Part shown: piece by piece, positions 5,752 through 16,493 of the stretch
Numbering within the stretch: position 1 is the stretch's first letter
Layout of the letters: each line of letters begins with the position of its first letter
Source: Methanosarcinales archaeon
GTDB lineage: Archaea; Halobacteriota; Methanosarcinia; Methanosarcinales; Methanogasteraceae
DNA length: 37,094 nt
Assembly: GCA_030625165.1 (NCBI GenBank)
Contig: DAOURL010000006.1
Span: 1-37,094, forward strand
Direction: 5' to 3'
Notes under the pieces: model-generated
Database searches by the model: none
Told to the model about the DNA's origin: nothing
The model's input: the letters and a program-made list of their open reading frames with translations, nothing else
Made by a program: the position numbers and the translations under genes

Positions 5752-7419
5752 TCACTCCAGCATATCCCTGATCACCCTTCCATAAACAGGTCTTGCAATC
5801 AGAACGCCGATCAGAACGCCTACGATCGTGGTGATGGCAAACCCTTTCAGTGCGCCGAATCCTAATCCCACAAACACATCAAGAAATCCCGCAAGTGGTA
5901 ACATCGCGACGATGGTGGTTGCCGCGGCAGCGAATATGATCGCAAACGCCTTGGATATGCGGGATAGGTACACCTTTAGGGATGGTATTTTCCCCTCGTA
6001 AAGCACTTCATCAGTAATGATTACCAGGTGGTCGATTCCAGTTCCGATAACAGCGATAATTCCTGCTATAGCTGGCAGATTGAGTTGCCACCCCACCATC
6101 GGAAGCGCAGCAAAACCAAGAATCATGAAGACCTCGCTTAACGATGTTGCAAGCATCGGGATCAAGATATTCTTCTGCCGGTATCTTAAGAATATGACGA
6201 GAGCAACGGTTAGCAGTGCAAACAGACCCGCGATCAGTGCCTGCTCCTTGAACTGGGCACCGAGTGATGCCGGGACCTGCTCCGAACCGATCACAGTCAC
6301 TTGCACCGGAAGCGCTCCTGCACTGAGATGCACCCGAAGTTGCCTCGCCTCAATCTCTCCTTCATCGCCAGAGCCGGTGTTCGCAATCAGATCTTGAGGG
6401 TGCCAATCGCCGTCCTCACCATATATGTCATACAGCCCTTTGAGATTGCTTGCCAGAGTAGGGTTTAGTGGTGCCGAATAGATCTCCTCATCATCGAGCA
6501 GCATGAGTAGTTCATGCGCATCCGGGTTGTCAGTGGCACCATATTTGACCGCTGCGACTCCGAATTCTCCAGATCCTTTGCTGTTCAGCTTGAAATTGAC
6601 GCCCCATGAACCTTCCCGCATCTCCGGGATGCCCACTGCGGTGATGCAGTCACCCCACAGCACATGCTCTGATGTGTTGTTCGTTGTCTGGATGCGGATC
6701 TCGAACTTTCCAGGCGTTGTAACGATATCCCGCGCTGTACTAAGATCGGTTCCGGCAAGGTCAACCATAAGAATATTTGATCCGACAGGGGTGATCTCAA
6801 TCTCCTTAAGACCCCAGATGTTTAATTTCTCGTTTAATACATCCTTCGTCAGCTCCTGGGTCTCTTTTGTCACCTCCTCCTTAAATTCGGGCTTGCCCTG
6901 TATGTCCTTCTTGATCGATCCGCCGACACCGGCGAGCAGATCTGATAATTCGCTATCGGCAACCTTTGACCTGATCTCATACGTATCGCTGCCGAGATAG
7001 ATCACTTCGCAAGTCAGATGCTTTGAGAGGTACGTCCGGATCACGTACGGCTTGTTTATGGTGAGTGTGACCTCGTTACCCCTTATGCGCCCATTTCCGT
7101 AACCAACCGCATTTATCGCATCCTCAACAGGTGGTTCTGTCATCCTGAATGTGATCTCGGTATCTGAGTGGTCAACGATCTCAACATCTCCAAACGTATC
7201 AGAAAACTCACTCTTGATGATCTGCACCGGATCGGCATCGATGCCTGCGATCACTCCATCCAACTGAAGTATCAGGGATGTCCCGCCATCGAGATCGAGC
7301 CCGTATTGCAGATTGGATGTGAAACCCTCCTCAGAGTTATAACTCGGGTGAATCGCTAGAAGCGCGATTAGCATGGCGAGAACAAATACGATTATCCTGA
7401 AGTCCTTGTACAATTTCAT
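5752..7419 (-). CDS. secD: Protein export membrane protein SecD
   Basis: Accessory subunit that, with SecF, aids protein translocation through SecY using the ion gradient. The start is the ATG at 7419: it overlaps the secF stop as ATGA and has AAGGAGG/GGAG upstream. The longer frame from 7452 would lie inside secF. The 555-residue product opens with one membrane span (FRIIVFVLAMLIALLAIHPS), then the YGLDLDGGTSLILQLDG motif typical of SecD. A large extracytoplasmic domain follows, and the last five spans (about residues 390-555) carry the RND-type core with GTGIDHLVIITDE. It is encoded in the order secF-secD, as in many archaea. Confidence 0.95.
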   Translation of the reverse strand: MKLYKDFRIIVFVLAMLIALLAIHPSYNSEEGFTSNLQYGLDLDGGTSLILQLDGVIAGIDADPVQIIKSEFSDTFGDVEIVDHSDTEITFRMTEPPVEDAINAVGYGNGRIRGNEVTLTINKPYVIRTYLSKHLTCEVIYLGSDTYEIRSKVADSELSDLLAGVGGSIKKDIQGKPEFKEEVTKETQELTKDVLNEKLNIWGLKEIEITPVGSNILMVDLAGTDLSTARDIVTTPGKFEIRIQTTNNTSEHVLWGDCITAVGIPEMREGSWGVNFKLNSKGSGEFGVAAVKYGATDNPDAHELLMLLDDEEIYSAPLNPTLASNLKGLYDIYGEDGDWHPQDLIANTGSGDEGEIEARQLRVHLSAGALPVQVTVIGSEQVPASLGAQFKEQALIAGLFALLTVALVIFLRYRQKNILIPMLATSLSEVFMILGFAALPMVGWQLNLPAIAGIIAVIGTGIDHLVIITDEVLYEGKIPSLKVYLSRISKAFAIIFAAAATTIVAMLPLAGFLDVFVGLGFGALKGFAITTIVGVLIGVLIARPVYGRVIRDMLE

Positions 7420-8372
7420 GCTCTCCGCCTCCTTGGTCTCTGTAGATGCCATTTCAGTATTCCGGTATTAAGCATCCATGTATTCATCAAATCGGCTAAT
7501 AGACCGAATATTAGCACGATCGAGATGTCGCTTATGATGCTGATCTGTGGCAACGATGGTATGATGAGGTGCGAGTACGTGGCAATAAGATACATGACTA
7601 TGATTGCGGCAAGCGTTGTACCTGTCATCGTAAGTCCTGTCGTCATCGCATTCGTAACCTTGTCATCGAGATTACCACGCCGTTTGAAAAGCCGTGTCGT
7701 TAAAAGGATGTCGCTGTCCACCGAATATCCGATCAGCATCAGGAGGGCTGCGACTGTTCCGAGCGATAGTTCGATGCCTGCAACAGCTATGAATGCGGCT
7801 GCGATCGCGATATCTGAGAATGCGGAGAGCACGACCGCAACAGAAGGCACGAATGTCCGGAATATCAAAAAGACGATCACCGCCATCAGGCAGAACGATA
7901 CCACGATCGCCTTGAGTGCCTGCGACTGTAGCGATTTCCCATATAGTGCGCCTGCCTGCTTGATCTCAGGAGCTGCGTACCCATAATCAGTATTAACCAT
8001 CTCCGTCAGCGAATCCTGTTTATCCTCGCTCATCGGACCGAACTTGATCATCCTGCGGCTGCCTGAATCCCGCACATAGATCACCGGATAATCCGCGAAT
8101 TTCTGTTGCAACATATCATGCGAATCTGTGGTGGCAAGGGTGATGATCGTGCCGCCCTCGAACTCAAATCCGAGACGCACTGGTGAACCTGTAGTCACAT
8201 ACATCCCGCCAAGAACGATCAATGCTATTACAAGCATGATCAGCGGTGGAATTACCAGTTGCACCGGTTTGTGAGTTCTTATGTACGAATCGAACCTTGA
8301 TATGATATCTGTTAACGCCTTCGGCGTCGACGCCTCCCTCTTTTCCGATCTTGAGTGCGTTATCTGTTTCAT
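7416..8372 (-). CDS. secF: Protein export membrane protein SecF
   Basis: Partner of SecD in the Sec translocon-associated complex. The 318-residue product has an N-terminal cytoplasmic tail, a first span (LVIPPLIMLVIALIVLGGMYV), the SecF motif LGFEFEGGTIITL, an extracytoplasmic domain, and five C-terminal spans including GYSVDSDILLTTRLFKRRGN. The start overlaps the prs stop as ATGA (8369-8372), and the end overlaps secD in the same way, so translation is probably coupled. The N-terminal tail EASTPKALT (residues 13-21) is encoded by a short palindromic element that also occurs in trmG10 (see findings). The tail is longer than the minimum needed before the first span. Confidence 0.95.
   Translation of the reverse strand: MKQITHSRSEKREASTPKALTDIISRFDSYIRTHKPVQLVIPPLIMLVIALIVLGGMYVTTGSPVRLGFEFEGGTIITLATTDSHDMLQQKFADYPVIYVRDSGSRRMIKFGPMSEDKQDSLTEMVNTDYGYAAPEIKQAGALYGKSLQSQALKAIVVSFCLMAVIVFLIFRTFVPSVAVVLSAFSDIAIAAAFIAVAGIELSLGTVAALLMLIGYSVDSDILLTTRLFKRRGNLDDKVTNAMTTGLTMTGTTLAAIIVMYLIATYSHLIIPSLPQISIISDISIVLIFGLLADLMNTWMLNTGILKWHLQRPRRRRA
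8311..8337 (-). repeat. Short palindromic element inside secF (copy 1)
   Basis: On the minus strand the stretch encodes EASTPKALT of SecF. Its core GCGTCGACGCC plus AGGCGTTA is shared with the element in trmG10 (30830-30898), 19 of 21 bases, in the same reading frame. It contains the perfect palindrome GGCGTCGACGCC and the hairpin arms ACGCC/GGCGT around a GAA loop. Confidence 0.55.
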
Positions 8373-13419: not shown

Positions 13420-15522
13420 ATGGAGAGGAAGAGCCCCACAATCGTTGTTACTGGAGATGTCTGCATTGACTGGCTGCAATGGCCCACAAAACCGGAAGAC
13501 AAGGGGCTAAACTGGAAACTTTACGCAGGAACGCGCATGTCCGCAAAACCCGGAGGTGCGCTTCTTTTAGGAGATTTTATGCGCACTGCAACCGGCATCA
13601 CTGTGGTTTCGCCGCAGTTGAAGGATATAGGTAAAATTTCTCCGAAAGTCCTCCTTCACTCAAACGCCGAATTGGAGCTTTTCCCATATTCATCGGACCG
13701 CAGGGAGATGGACAAAGACCGGATGGTTTACCGAATCGGGCGTTGCAGAGGGTTTACAGGACCAACTGAAGACTTTCCGGTGCCGCTTTCTTTCGAAGAT
13801 GACGATCCTCGTGCGGATATGGTGGTTCTCGATGATGCAGGGAACGGATTTCGCGATGATAAAACGAGATGGCCTTTGGCGATACAGGACGAAGGGGAAA
13901 ACCCCGTCGTGATATGCAAGATGCACCGCCCTCTTGCTTCCGGTGATCTGTGGGAGCACGTCTCAAAGAATCATTCCGAAAGGCTGGTTGTGGTCGTGAC
14001 CGCGGACGATCTGCGTGCAAGCGGCATGAACATCAGTCGCTCTCTTTCATGGGAGCGGACCGCCAAGGAATTCGTCTGGCAGATGGCATACAACGCAGGA
14101 ATAGGGCTTACAGACTGTACAAATCTCGTGGTTCGCTTCGGTCTCGAAGGCGCGATCCATTATACATTGGTGGGCGACCGCGCAATATCCCGGCTGTACT
14201 TCGATCCGACCATGAGCGAGGGTGACTTTACGCACAACTACCCCGGAAAGATGCAAGGAATCTCTTCCGTATTCGTTGCCGCACTTGCAGCAAGGATTAC
14301 AGTCCAGTGTGATCAGGGGGATCCACTCTCTGATGCAGTGGGAAGGGCTGTGCGTGATGGGCTGAATGCTTCTAGAGAACTTGTCAGACGCGGTTTTGGA
14401 AAGGACGCTGAACGTGAACCTGAATATCCCTACCCCGTAGCTGGTATCTTTTTAGCCAGTGAACAGAGAGGCGATCACATCGCTGATGTGGCAATATCTG
14501 GTCAGAACACGGCAGAGGATGCGGACCCGCACTCGTGGTGCATCCTTAAAGAGATAAACGATCCCGTGCTGGAGCATATCGCTTATGGAATTGTAAAGGA
14601 AGGGGAGACTGCTGCACTTAACAACGTCCCAATAGGTAACTTCGGGAAGTTAAAGAGTGTTGACAGGAATGAGATTGAGAGCTTTCACAGTATAAAGAAC
14701 CTGATGCGGGAATATATCGAATCAGAGAGCTGTACACGCCCACTTTCAATAGCGGTCTTTGGTTCACCCGGTTCTGGCAAATCCTTTGGCATAACCGAGA
14801 TCGCAAAGAGTATCGCTTCAGGTAGGATTGAGATAGTGAAGTTCAATCTTTCCCAGTTCGATTCAAAGTCTGATCTGATCAGCGCGTTTCATAAAGTCCG
14901 CGACCTTGCACTGGAGGGGAAGATTCCGCTCGTCTTTTTTGATGAGTTCGATTCGGATTTTAATGGGAAACTTGGCTGGCTGAAATACTTTTTAGAACCG
15001 ATGCAGGACGGAAAATTCATGGAACGGGAGACGATGCATCCCATCGGCAGATCGATCTTTGTCTTTGCAGGCGGAATAAACAACACATTTGAAAGATTCT
15101 CGGGAGACGGTGTCGATGATGCCGCTACCATGGACCCTGAAGAAGAGAGGGCGTATAAAGATGCGAAAGGACCCGATTTCACAAGCCGTCTGCGCGGTTA
15201 CGTAAATATAAGGGGACCTAATCAGAGGGGGTCCGACGATACGGTATTTCTAATCAGGCGGGCGATGCTACTTCGTTCACTACTCGAACAGAAGGTAGAT
15301 AACCTCTTTGACAGCAGAAAACATCTCAGAATCGATGATGGCGTGCTGCGAGCACTGATCAACGTCAAAAGTTATAAACACGGCACACGTTCGATCGAAG
15401 CCATCATCGAGATGAGCATGTTAAACGGGCGCAGGTCATGGGAACAGGCATATCTTCCTGCAAAGGAGCAGCTCAAGCTGCATCTCGACGAAGAGTCGTT
15501 CTCGCGTCTTCTGGGTGGGTGA
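13420..15522 (+). CDS. PfkB-like (ribokinase-fold) domain fused to AAA+ ATPase
   Basis: A 700-residue soluble protein. The N-terminal part (about 5-330) begins TIVVTGDVCIDWLQWP, then PGGALLLGDF, and ends in HNYPGKMQGISSVFVAALAA, resembling a ribokinase/PfkB fold. The GAGD catalytic motif is absent (MQGISS in its place), so sugar kinase activity is unlikely and ligand sensing is plausible. A linker (330-440) leads to a AAA+ module: Walker A FGSPGSGKSFG (about 447-457), Walker B PLVFFDEFD (about 503-511), sensor-1-like FVFAGGINN, an arginine-finger-like DFTSRLRGYV (about 586) and a sensor-2-like KHGTRSIEAI. The strong ribosome site AAAGGAGGAGAAAGT supports the start. No partner gene follows except a DUF4062 fragment. 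Similar uncharacterised proteins occur in bacteria, to my recollection near RyR or DUF4062 proteins in conflict-type loci. That context is inferred, not shown. Confidence 0.75.
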   Translation: MERKSPTIVVTGDVCIDWLQWPTKPEDKGLNWKLYAGTRMSAKPGGALLLGDFMRTATGITVVSPQLKDIGKISPKVLLHSNAELELFPYSSDRREMDKDRMVYRIGRCRGFTGPTEDFPVPLSFEDDDPRADMVVLDDAGNGFRDDKTRWPLAIQDEGENPVVICKMHRPLASGDLWEHVSKNHSERLVVVVTADDLRASGMNISRSLSWERTAKEFVWQMAYNAGIGLTDCTNLVVRFGLEGAIHYTLVGDRAISRLYFDPTMSEGDFTHNYPGKMQGISSVFVAALAARITVQCDQGDPLSDAVGRAVRDGLNASRELVRRGFGKDAEREPEYPYPVAGIFLASEQRGDHIADVAISGQNTAEDADPHSWCILKEINDPVLEHIAYGIVKEGETAALNNVPIGNFGKLKSVDRNEIESFHSIKNLMREYIESESCTRPLSIAVFGSPGSGKSFGITEIAKSIASGRIEIVKFNLSQFDSKSDLISAFHKVRDLALEGKIPLVFFDEFDSDFNGKLGWLKYFLEPMQDGKFMERETMHPIGRSIFVFAGGINNTFERFSGDGVDDAATMDPEEERAYKDAKGPDFTSRLRGYVNIRGPNQRGSDDTVFLIRRAMLLRSLLEQKVDNLFDSRKHLRIDDGVLRALINVKSYKHGTRSIEAIIEMSMLNGRRSWEQAYLPAKEQLKLHLDEESFSRLLGG

Positions 15523-15552
15523 CGCGATACTTAGTGCGTCGCGGGAAACTGA

Positions 15553-15663
15553 GGTAAGACCCTGCACCACCCAGCAAAATCCACAAGAATAAAGACCGCC
15601 CGCGTCTTCGTCTCCTCGACATTCAGCGATATGCATGCGGAGCGGGACTACCTCAACCGATTC
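15553..15663 (+). pseudogene. DUF4062 N-terminal fragment (remnant)
   Basis: The frame after an in-frame stop at 15550-15552 reads GKTLHHPAKSTRI then KTARVFVSSTFSDMHAERDY, the highly characteristic opening of DUF4062 domains, which cap STAND/NACHT-type ATPases and other conflict proteins. No ATG, GTG or TTG precedes the conserved motif, and similarity stops after about residue RDYLNRF. The frame then continues to 15840 without recognisable homology. I read it as a gene lacking both its start codon and nearly its whole body, 30 bases downstream of the PfkB-like/AAA+ gene. The rest of the 314-bp gap 15523-15836 shows nothing else. Confidence 0.65.
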
Positions 15664-15836
15664 GGATGCAAGCGAGCGGTTGCCCTGATGGCAACAAAAT
15701 GCCATGATGGCTACACCCATTGTCTAAATCCCATCAACCGTGTCAACCACAGCTTATGTTCACGGCTGATCGCCCTTTCTGTATATTCCACAAGTTTGAC
15801 AAGTTCGTCTTCATCCGAATCAGTTTCATCCATTCC

Positions 15837-16064
15837 CTAAAGCAGTTCAATCAGATCATCCTTCTCAAGTCCGGTCTGTTGGAGAATGTCGAGAAGTGTG
15901 CCTTTTGCAAGTTCCCTATGCAGTGGGACAACGGTTTTATAGGTTATTCCATGGGCGACCTTTTGAAGTGACACATGGCCCCCCCTCTGCCGCACTTCGA
16001 TAAAACCAGCTCGTTTCAGTGCAGCTATAAGTTTTTTACCCGATATGATGGGGAGCTTACGCAT
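15837..16064 (-). CDS. hicA: HicA-family toxin (mRNA interferase)
   Basis: A 75-residue double-stranded-RNA-binding-fold toxin that cuts mRNA. It begins MRKLPIISGKKLIAALKRAG and shows GFIEVRQRGGHVSLQK, with the catalytic His of the G-(S/G)-H motif, then VVPLHRELAKGTLLDILQQ. Length and motifs are complete, so the toxin is probably active. The start ATG at 16064 lies inside the end of hicB (8-base overlap), the typical coupled arrangement. An upstream frame to 16118 is only hicB in another frame. Confidence 0.9.
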   Translation of the reverse strand: MRKLPIISGKKLIAALKRAGFIEVRQRGGHVSLQKVAHGITYKTVVPLHRELAKGTLLDILQQTGLEKDDLIELL

Positions 16065-16272
16065 GGGCAACTTCAACTGTGGTCCAGAACGGTGTGGATG
16101 TCCCACTGGGCAGGTCATCTACACCAAAACTCTCGATATAAAGATCTATGGCTTCCTTGATGTTCGCCTGCGCTTCTTCAATGGACTCGCCCTGAGAAGT
16201 CACACCGAGCGCGGGGCATCTCGCAATAAAGAACTTGTCTTCCTTCACGATGGATACAATGAATGTTCCCAT
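16057..16272 (-). CDS. hicB: HicB-family antitoxin
   Basis: A 71-residue partial-RNase-H-fold antitoxin. It shows FIVSIVKEDKFFIARCPALG, TSQGESIEEAQANIKEAIDL and TPFWTTVEV, the pattern of the short HicB family that binds HicA. It has no separate helix-turn-helix tail, so autoregulation may rest on the complex or be absent. GAGGTTGAT precedes the ATG at 16272. It is co-translated with hicA. The gap upstream to 16493 (221 bp) holds a frame I could not assign. Confidence 0.9.
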   Translation of the reverse strand: MGTFIVSIVKEDKFFIARCPALGVTSQGESIEEAQANIKEAIDLYIESFGVDDLPSGTSTPFWTTVEVAHA

Positions 16273-16493
16273 ATCAACCTCTGATTCTGTTATGGGGCTA
16301 TTCTGACCCCGTTATAGATTAACCTTGCTCTTCGATCTCTTATGATATCCGGGATCCGCAATTCCCATAGACACCCAACTTGTATAGAGTCAGAACCCGC
16401 AACATACCTGTCGCAGGAACATGGACCTCTGATCGCTCTTTCTTCAGTCATAAGCTGACCTTTCCATGAATACATGAATCGCTCGAGAAATCC

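Follow-up and report, generated by a model that had tools for sequence, protein, structure and literature searches.

The stretch of DNA considered here, hereafter the window, comprises 37,094 nucleotides of contig DAOURL010000006.1 from a Methanosarcinales archaeon (genome G000; 2.3 Mb, 258 contigs, 86% complete). It contains an ORF that begins with ATG, encodes 700 residues without an internal stop and is present as a single copy in this genome (Table 1). All of the motifs quoted in the original prediction, in which an orphan PfkB-like/AAA+ fusion was proposed, were found in this ORF, including GDVCID (aa 12-17), PGGALLLGDF (approximately aa 44-53) and, at the GAGD position, GKMQGISSVF (aa 276-285). 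When the ORF was compared with Pfam and NCBIfam, AAA-type P-loop models were the sole matches (Pfam AAA: 24.1 bits; cutoff 21.2). PADLOC likewise returned AAA-type matches only, with no model matching a substantial part of the protein, while a PDB sequence search with the ORF alone was uninformative. Among the matches listed, the nearest relative in a named assembly is found in Methanosarcinales archaeon UBA203 (L009; 94% identity).

The ORF had also been placed in a pocket of accessory genes. There, the downstream DUF4062 remnant and hicA proved to be real, and the match of the HicB-like sequence is weak. The remnant spans profile positions 1-21 only, and the ORF itself contains no DUF4062 domain.

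Table 1. Features of the window in and downstream of the PfkB-like/AAA+ ORF.
Feature	Position	Strand	Basis or remark
PfkB-like/AAA+ ORF, 700 aa; truncated member of a PfkB-like/AAA+/RyR family	13420-15522	+	ORF reading, relatives
Degenerate ribokinase (PfkB) fold, about aa 1-340	13420-14439	+	AlphaFold and Foldseek
GISS (aa 280-283), replacing catalytic GAGD	14257-14268	+	Asp in 0/68 relatives
AAA+ module, about aa 416-700, ClpB-D2/Skd3-like, without aromatic pore loop	14665-15519	+	Pfam, AlphaFold, structure match, alignment
Walker A, GSPGSGKS (aa 448-455)	14761-14784	+	Core residues invariant
Walker B, FDEFD (aa 507-511)	14938-14952	+	D508/E509/F510/D511 invariant
SRLR (aa 589-592), arginine-finger candidate R590	15184-15195	+	Invariant
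HGTRS (aa 654-658), sensor-2 candidate R657	15379-15393	+	Invariant
Frameshift near 15512 (one base more than in L009, the 94%-identical sister) and premature stop after residue 700	15505-15522	+	
Last bases homologous to intact copies, out of frame	15523-15547	+	
941-bp segment replacing the RyR-coding 3' end	15548-16488		L100 has 459 bp there (7329-7787)
DUF4062 N-terminal remnant (VFVSSTFSDMHAERDYL)	15601-15663	+	22.9 bits, just under the 24.7 cutoff
HicA toxin gene	15837-16118	-	PF07927, 6.6e-15
HicB-like antitoxin gene	16057-16272	-	Weak Pfam matches

The N-terminal and AAA+ modules

The predicted structure of the window protein, generated with AlphaFold2 from an alignment of 68 sequences, showed a mean pLDDT of 88 and a pTM of 0.89. 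A Foldseek search of the PDB with this model yielded 108 matches with E<=0.001, and all 50 of those listed are ribokinase-family sugar or nucleoside kinases (HldA, PfkB, pseudouridine kinase, ribokinase and an archaeal nucleoside kinase), with a probability of 1.00, a target-normalised TM score of about 0.5 and E values down to 1.4e-8 (HldA). At the level of the model, this confirms an N-terminal ribokinase fold that is invisible to sequence searches, with no Pfam match to PF00294 (PfkB) being obtained for the window ORF or for any of the 53 relatives scanned. The result agrees with the fold originally predicted for this region, for which such a structural comparison had been named beforehand as a possible refutation. 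The further proposal that the catalytic GAGD motif was replaced, leaving a dead kinase, is borne out by the alignment. At the position of the catalytic Asp (S283 in the window protein), the 68 relatives present Ser (55), Thr (5), Ala (4), Cys (2), Leu (1) or Val (1) but never Asp, indicating that the kinase site was lost before the family diversified.

The AAA+ module, by contrast with the dead kinase, is intact, as had been predicted. G448, P450, G451, G453, K454 and S455 of Walker A, D508 and E509 of Walker B, S589-R590-L591 around the candidate arginine finger, and H654 and R657-S658 around the candidate sensor 2 are all invariant across the 68 relatives. In the model of a full-length relative (L010), the closest AAA+ structures are ClpB D2 and Skd3. 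In unfoldases of this type, an aromatic pore loop sits between a strand and Walker B. No such motif was detected in any of the 68 sequences, in which the segment from the strand to Walker B is invariantly 36 residues long, arguing for a switch over a threading machine. As such, the remodelling initially envisaged, if taken in the unfoldase sense, found no support despite the resemblance to ClpB D2 and Skd3.

Loss of the RyR-coding end

An intact copy of the gene, encoding 856 residues and including an RyR domain, is found in another member of the same genus (L100 in genome G297). The window tracks this copy at 93% identity up to position 15547, the one extra base near 15512 excepted, and homology resumes at position 16489. 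The 459 bp of L100 that are replaced correspond to most of the RyR-coding 3' end, such that the predicted retention of the ATPase and loss of a C-terminal module are both seen in this comparison. No RyR domain was found in the window ORF or downstream of it, nor elsewhere in G000, in a search that was also without matches in control genomes.

Related copies have lost the same region in other ways. In genome G296 (L101), the copy has a TAG codon in frame and its RyR deletion is a different one, with about 50 bp bridging the gap. The copy in genome G323 (L102), which belongs to the same order but not the same family, ends within the RyR region, at residue 723, and unrelated sequence follows. Together with the window copy, this gives at least three RyR losses that look independent among close relatives whose ribokinase/AAA+ part is still 89-95% identical. 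The segment carrying hicAB and the DUF4062 fragment is absent at this site in both L100 and L101. In view of this synteny, the remnant does not prove an ancestral partnership in an operon; lying in a segment that the sister genomes lack, it supports co-occurrence only.

The RyR domain and the family

Relatives of the window protein were found at 291 or more loci of GTDB genomes from many bacterial and archaeal phyla, and the best 80 of these were taken for comparison. Nearly all of the relatives in this set contain 850-1100 residues. Relatives also occur on Streptomyces and Methylobacterium plasmids, and a single one was found in IMG/VR (L089); no relative was found in phage records. Within the archaeal phylum of the window, the family is patchy, being present in 4 of 295 genomes. 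The protein is, therefore, no orphan, as at least 291 GTDB loci hold relatives, and its length of 700 residues reflects a lineage-specific truncation. No paper describing a pseudo-ribokinase/AAA+/RyR protein was found in a literature search of incomplete coverage, and the proteins constitute a widespread, unnamed bacterial and archaeal family.

A C-terminal RyR domain (PF02026) was detected in 48 of the 53 members scanned. The modelled structure of L010 matches human RyR3 Repeat12, co-crystallized with dantrolene and ADP, with a probability of 1.00, and the RyR region of the family aligns clearly in sequence to RyR1 and to a Bacteroides thetaiotaomicron RyR-like protein. The domain is not indispensable, as a few natural members (L007, L035 and L045) are without it and the 3 kb downstream of them hold no RyR either. 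According to a 2026 preprint (PMC13232231), RyR-domain proteins of phages use H75, W78, H100 and D117 to bind or hydrolyse 2'cADPR and 3'cADPR, and the conserved residues of the family RyR correspond to those for which contact with cADPR or its cleavage was reported in the phage protein RyDEP. Equivalents of H75 and W78 are present in 65 and 59 of 66 RyR blocks, respectively. In a pattern-based count, H100-like and D117-like residues were seen in 26 and 35, respectively, of the 39 copies belonging to neither Clostridia nor Chlorobiaceae, and each was seen in all 10 Chlorobiaceae copies; most Clostridial copies lack them (present in 7/17 and 6/17, respectively).

In a quick tree that includes several long branches, the window copy and L009 fall together with a solitary clade of Clostridia (SH-aLRT 99%), with the archaeal copies L024/L035, L002 and L037 being placed elsewhere. 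This scatter of archaeal copies suggests horizontal transfer. Divergent archaeal paralogues of up to 1177 residues, with extra C-terminal sequence, were noted in genomes G198 (L002/L005) and G286 (L004), with G198 encoding at least two family copies.

Genes neighbouring family members

Apart from the solitary Clostridial (18) and Chlorobiaceae (12) groups, 57 loci were available for a survey of neighbouring genes, and at least one partner lies within 2 kb in 37 of them. In overlapping sets, SLOG-like proteins (15), DUF4062 (13), RyR-containing proteins (11), the TrkA_N-RyR type (10) and TIR (9) were found within this distance. Partners numbered 28.2 per 100 kb in the nearest 2 kb, falling to 3.5 between 2 and 10 kb away, figures of which the near/far contrast but not the absolute count is meaningful, as the HMMs employed were built from these same loci. 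The Clostridial loci contained one partner (density 1.4 near, 0 far) and the Chlorobiaceae loci none (0 near and far). Since these two groups keep mostly full-length copies without partners, the partners are not obligatory. A conserved genomic site was seen in five Chlorobiaceae. No constant metabolic operon was found among the family neighbourhoods, and the proposed partners RyR (fused), DUF4062 and TIR were all encountered, in line with the conflict-type neighbourhood originally predicted for homologues.

Pfam analysis of representative neighbours identified TIR_2, DUF4062 with NACHT, WD40, TrkA_N with RyR, RelA_SpoT with LSDAT_prok (SLOG) and RyR, and SLATT_1/3. A small SLOG-like gene is often located directly downstream, starting between -3 and +22 bp from the stop of the family gene, and the SLOG-like domain is fused to the C-terminus of the family protein itself in L053, L063, L076 and L078. 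As this partner has no Pfam match and a profile search against the PDB gave nothing meaningful, the SLOG label rests on motifs and SLATT fusions. In the SLOG-like family represented by L042:3047-3592, the motif reads G[IV]TGHR...LAEGADR...GGTGEI, and SLATT 2TM domains form the C-terminus of some of its proteins. TrkA_N membrane proteins with a C-terminal RyR are recurrent neighbours (L060:4222-5991, L024:8093-9916 and L055:13149-15137) and look like candidates for nucleotide-gated channels. The L049 locus combines PfkB/AAA/RyR, SLOG-like, TrkA_N-RyR and TIR, and that of L061 includes DUF4062. Elsewhere, a RelA/SpoT, LSDAT (prokaryotic TRPM-SLOG) and RyR protein is encoded directly downstream of a family member (L026:11646-14222), a SIR2-family protein of approximately 2080 residues adjoins the Methylobacterium plasmid homologue (L008:4299-10547), and a TIR domain fused to a bacterial extracellular solute-binding protein family 5 domain lies beside another (L041:424-2733). 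PADLOC holds no model for the core protein, and its only ThsB matches, to one TIR protein among the neighbours, are weak. In the genome of the window, about 86% complete, no TIR match was obtained.

Discussion

On these comparisons, the window ORF is a recently truncated, damaged copy of a three-module pseudo-ribokinase/AAA+/RyR protein. With the RyR module lost, the copy probably either no longer functions or is left with only its ribokinase/ATPase part, and partial inactivation is the likeliest description. For this copy alone, the disruption may stem from misjoining of the MAG or from an assembly error of one base. That the gene is instead a functional RyR-less variant, rather than one in decay, is somewhat unlikely. 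Such a variant would account for 700 residues uninterrupted by a stop, has precedent in the naturally RyR-less members, and would fit a dN/dS of 0.195 relative to L009, a value near that of the adjacent ApbE gene (0.151), such that selection acted until recently or still acts. Yet dN/dS averages over the time before truncation, the frameshift and 3' replacement are lineage-specific, and the sister L101 carries its own in-frame TAG and RyR deletion. A damaged copy remains the preferred reading of the window gene. Of the original prediction as a whole, the dead ribokinase, live AAA+ module, conflict-type neighbourhood and lost module stand, the orphan status is wrong and unfoldase-style remodelling is unsupported.

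As for the full-length protein, there is an even chance that it acts as an oligomeric, ATP-driven switch reading a nucleotide derived from NAD+, and that the window copy is a damaged form of this switch. Because relatives adjoin NAD-destroying immune enzymes and membrane-pore proteins, the protein probably acts as a switch in an antiviral alarm system. In such a system, a neighbouring TIR or DUF4062 NADase would make an ADP-ribose-type nucleotide from NAD+, which the RyR domain, and perhaps also the dead ribokinase pocket, would read; ATP-dependent assembly would then control a membrane effector, namely, a SLOG-like/SLATT 2TM or TrkA_N-RyR protein, as part of a response to viruses or stress. 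The RyR module missing here may be a sensor and not the effector that had been supposed; the 2026 phage RyR work points to nucleotide binding.

Other roles for the family would account for part of these observations. The main rival holds that the protein quenches rather than relays the signal, with RyR sequestering or hydrolysing NAD-derived signals as does phage RyDEP and the ATPase recycling or releasing them, thereby limiting TIR/DUF4062 toxicity without firing an effector. In its favour, cADPR is bound or cleaved by RyDEP-type RyR domains (PMC13232231), 35/39 copies from outside the Clostridia and Chlorobiaceae and all 10 Chlorobiaceae copies retain equivalents of the catalytic dyad, and the solitary Clostridial and Chlorobiaceae copies could be free-standing detoxifiers. 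Quenching is nonetheless unlikely, as the catalytic Asp is missing from most Clostridial copies and as the SLOG-like fusions and close SLATT/TrkA_N-RyR linkage better fit a signalling receptor. It is more improbable still that the protein is a housekeeping or metabolic ATPase unrelated to conflict. While clade-wide retention in Clostridium and Chlorobiaceae, with the conserved site in the latter, would suit such a role, the patchy distribution in the phylum, the several positions of archaeal members in the tree, the enrichment of NADase, SLOG-like and RyR neighbours, the lack of a constant metabolic operon, and the lost kinase active site all speak against it. A Clp-like unfoldase with a ribokinase-fold substrate adaptor, suggested by the structural proximity of the AAA+ module to ClpB D2 and Skd3, is highly improbable given a segment before Walker B that is of fixed length and devoid of the pore loop in every sequence aligned.

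Returning to the signalling switch, it can tentatively be imagined, though it is doubtful, that the family represents immune receptors of a new class, with a pseudo-ribokinase and RyR on either side of an AAA+ switch that would read TIR/DUF4062 NAD-derived alarm nucleotides and open SLATT/TrkA_N-RyR membrane pores. Such a receptor, with RyR being repeatedly discarded in archaea, would, through the ancestry of its RyR domain, be a counterpart in prokaryotes of the calcium release channels that respond to cADPR. With 2026 preprints having assigned biochemical functions to the surrounding domains (NADase for DUF4062 and cADPR binding or cleavage for phage RyR), a protein joining RyR, an ATPase and a dead ribokinase beside genes for NADases and membrane pores is a natural candidate for the missing receptor or regulator. 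A further, long-standing question touched by the family is whether RyR Repeat12 began as a prokaryotic nucleotide-alarm sensor.

Comparison with known systems

The N-terminal 340 or so residues of the window protein share the fold, the GG switch motif and the GD..ID start motif of the PfkB/ribokinase family (PF00294), but differ in lacking a Pfam match, in lacking the GAGD Asp throughout the family and in being fused to AAA+. ClpB D2 and Skd3 are the closest structural AAA+ relatives, although the family has no pore loop and has other fusion partners. A nucleotide-centred conflict network of SLOG, SLATT, RyR and TIR was reportedly delineated by Burroughs et al. in NAR in 2015, and is said to include the partner domains encountered here, namely, SLATT, LSDAT/SLOG with RelA/SpoT and RyR, and TrkA_N-RyR. 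To our knowledge, the pseudo-ribokinase/AAA+/RyR protein was not described there. With Thoeris, which pairs TIR with a SLOG effector, the family loci share TIR and SLOG-like neighbours and the logic of an NAD-derived signal, but they contain no ThsA, are centred on the ribokinase/AAA+/RyR protein and have SLATT or TrkA_N-RyR membrane partners.

For Swarozyc, a 2026 preprint whose text makes no mention of RyR, PfkB or SLOG (PMC13174449) reports that DUF4062 acts against phages as an NADase of the TIR-like kind. DUF4062(-NACHT-WD40) genes adjoin 13 family members and a remnant lies beside the window gene; the family protein, however, is separate and devoid of DUF4062, and the remnant covers only 21 profile positions. 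Finally, the full-length relatives carry a tandem Repeat12-like module and share His/Trp and often His/Asp ligand residues with RyR Repeat12 proteins (PF02026), such as phage RyDEP and the putative ryanodine receptor of B. thetaiotaomicron. Unlike in those proteins, the RyR module, absent from the window copy, is in this family fused to a pseudo-ribokinase and an AAA+ ATPase.
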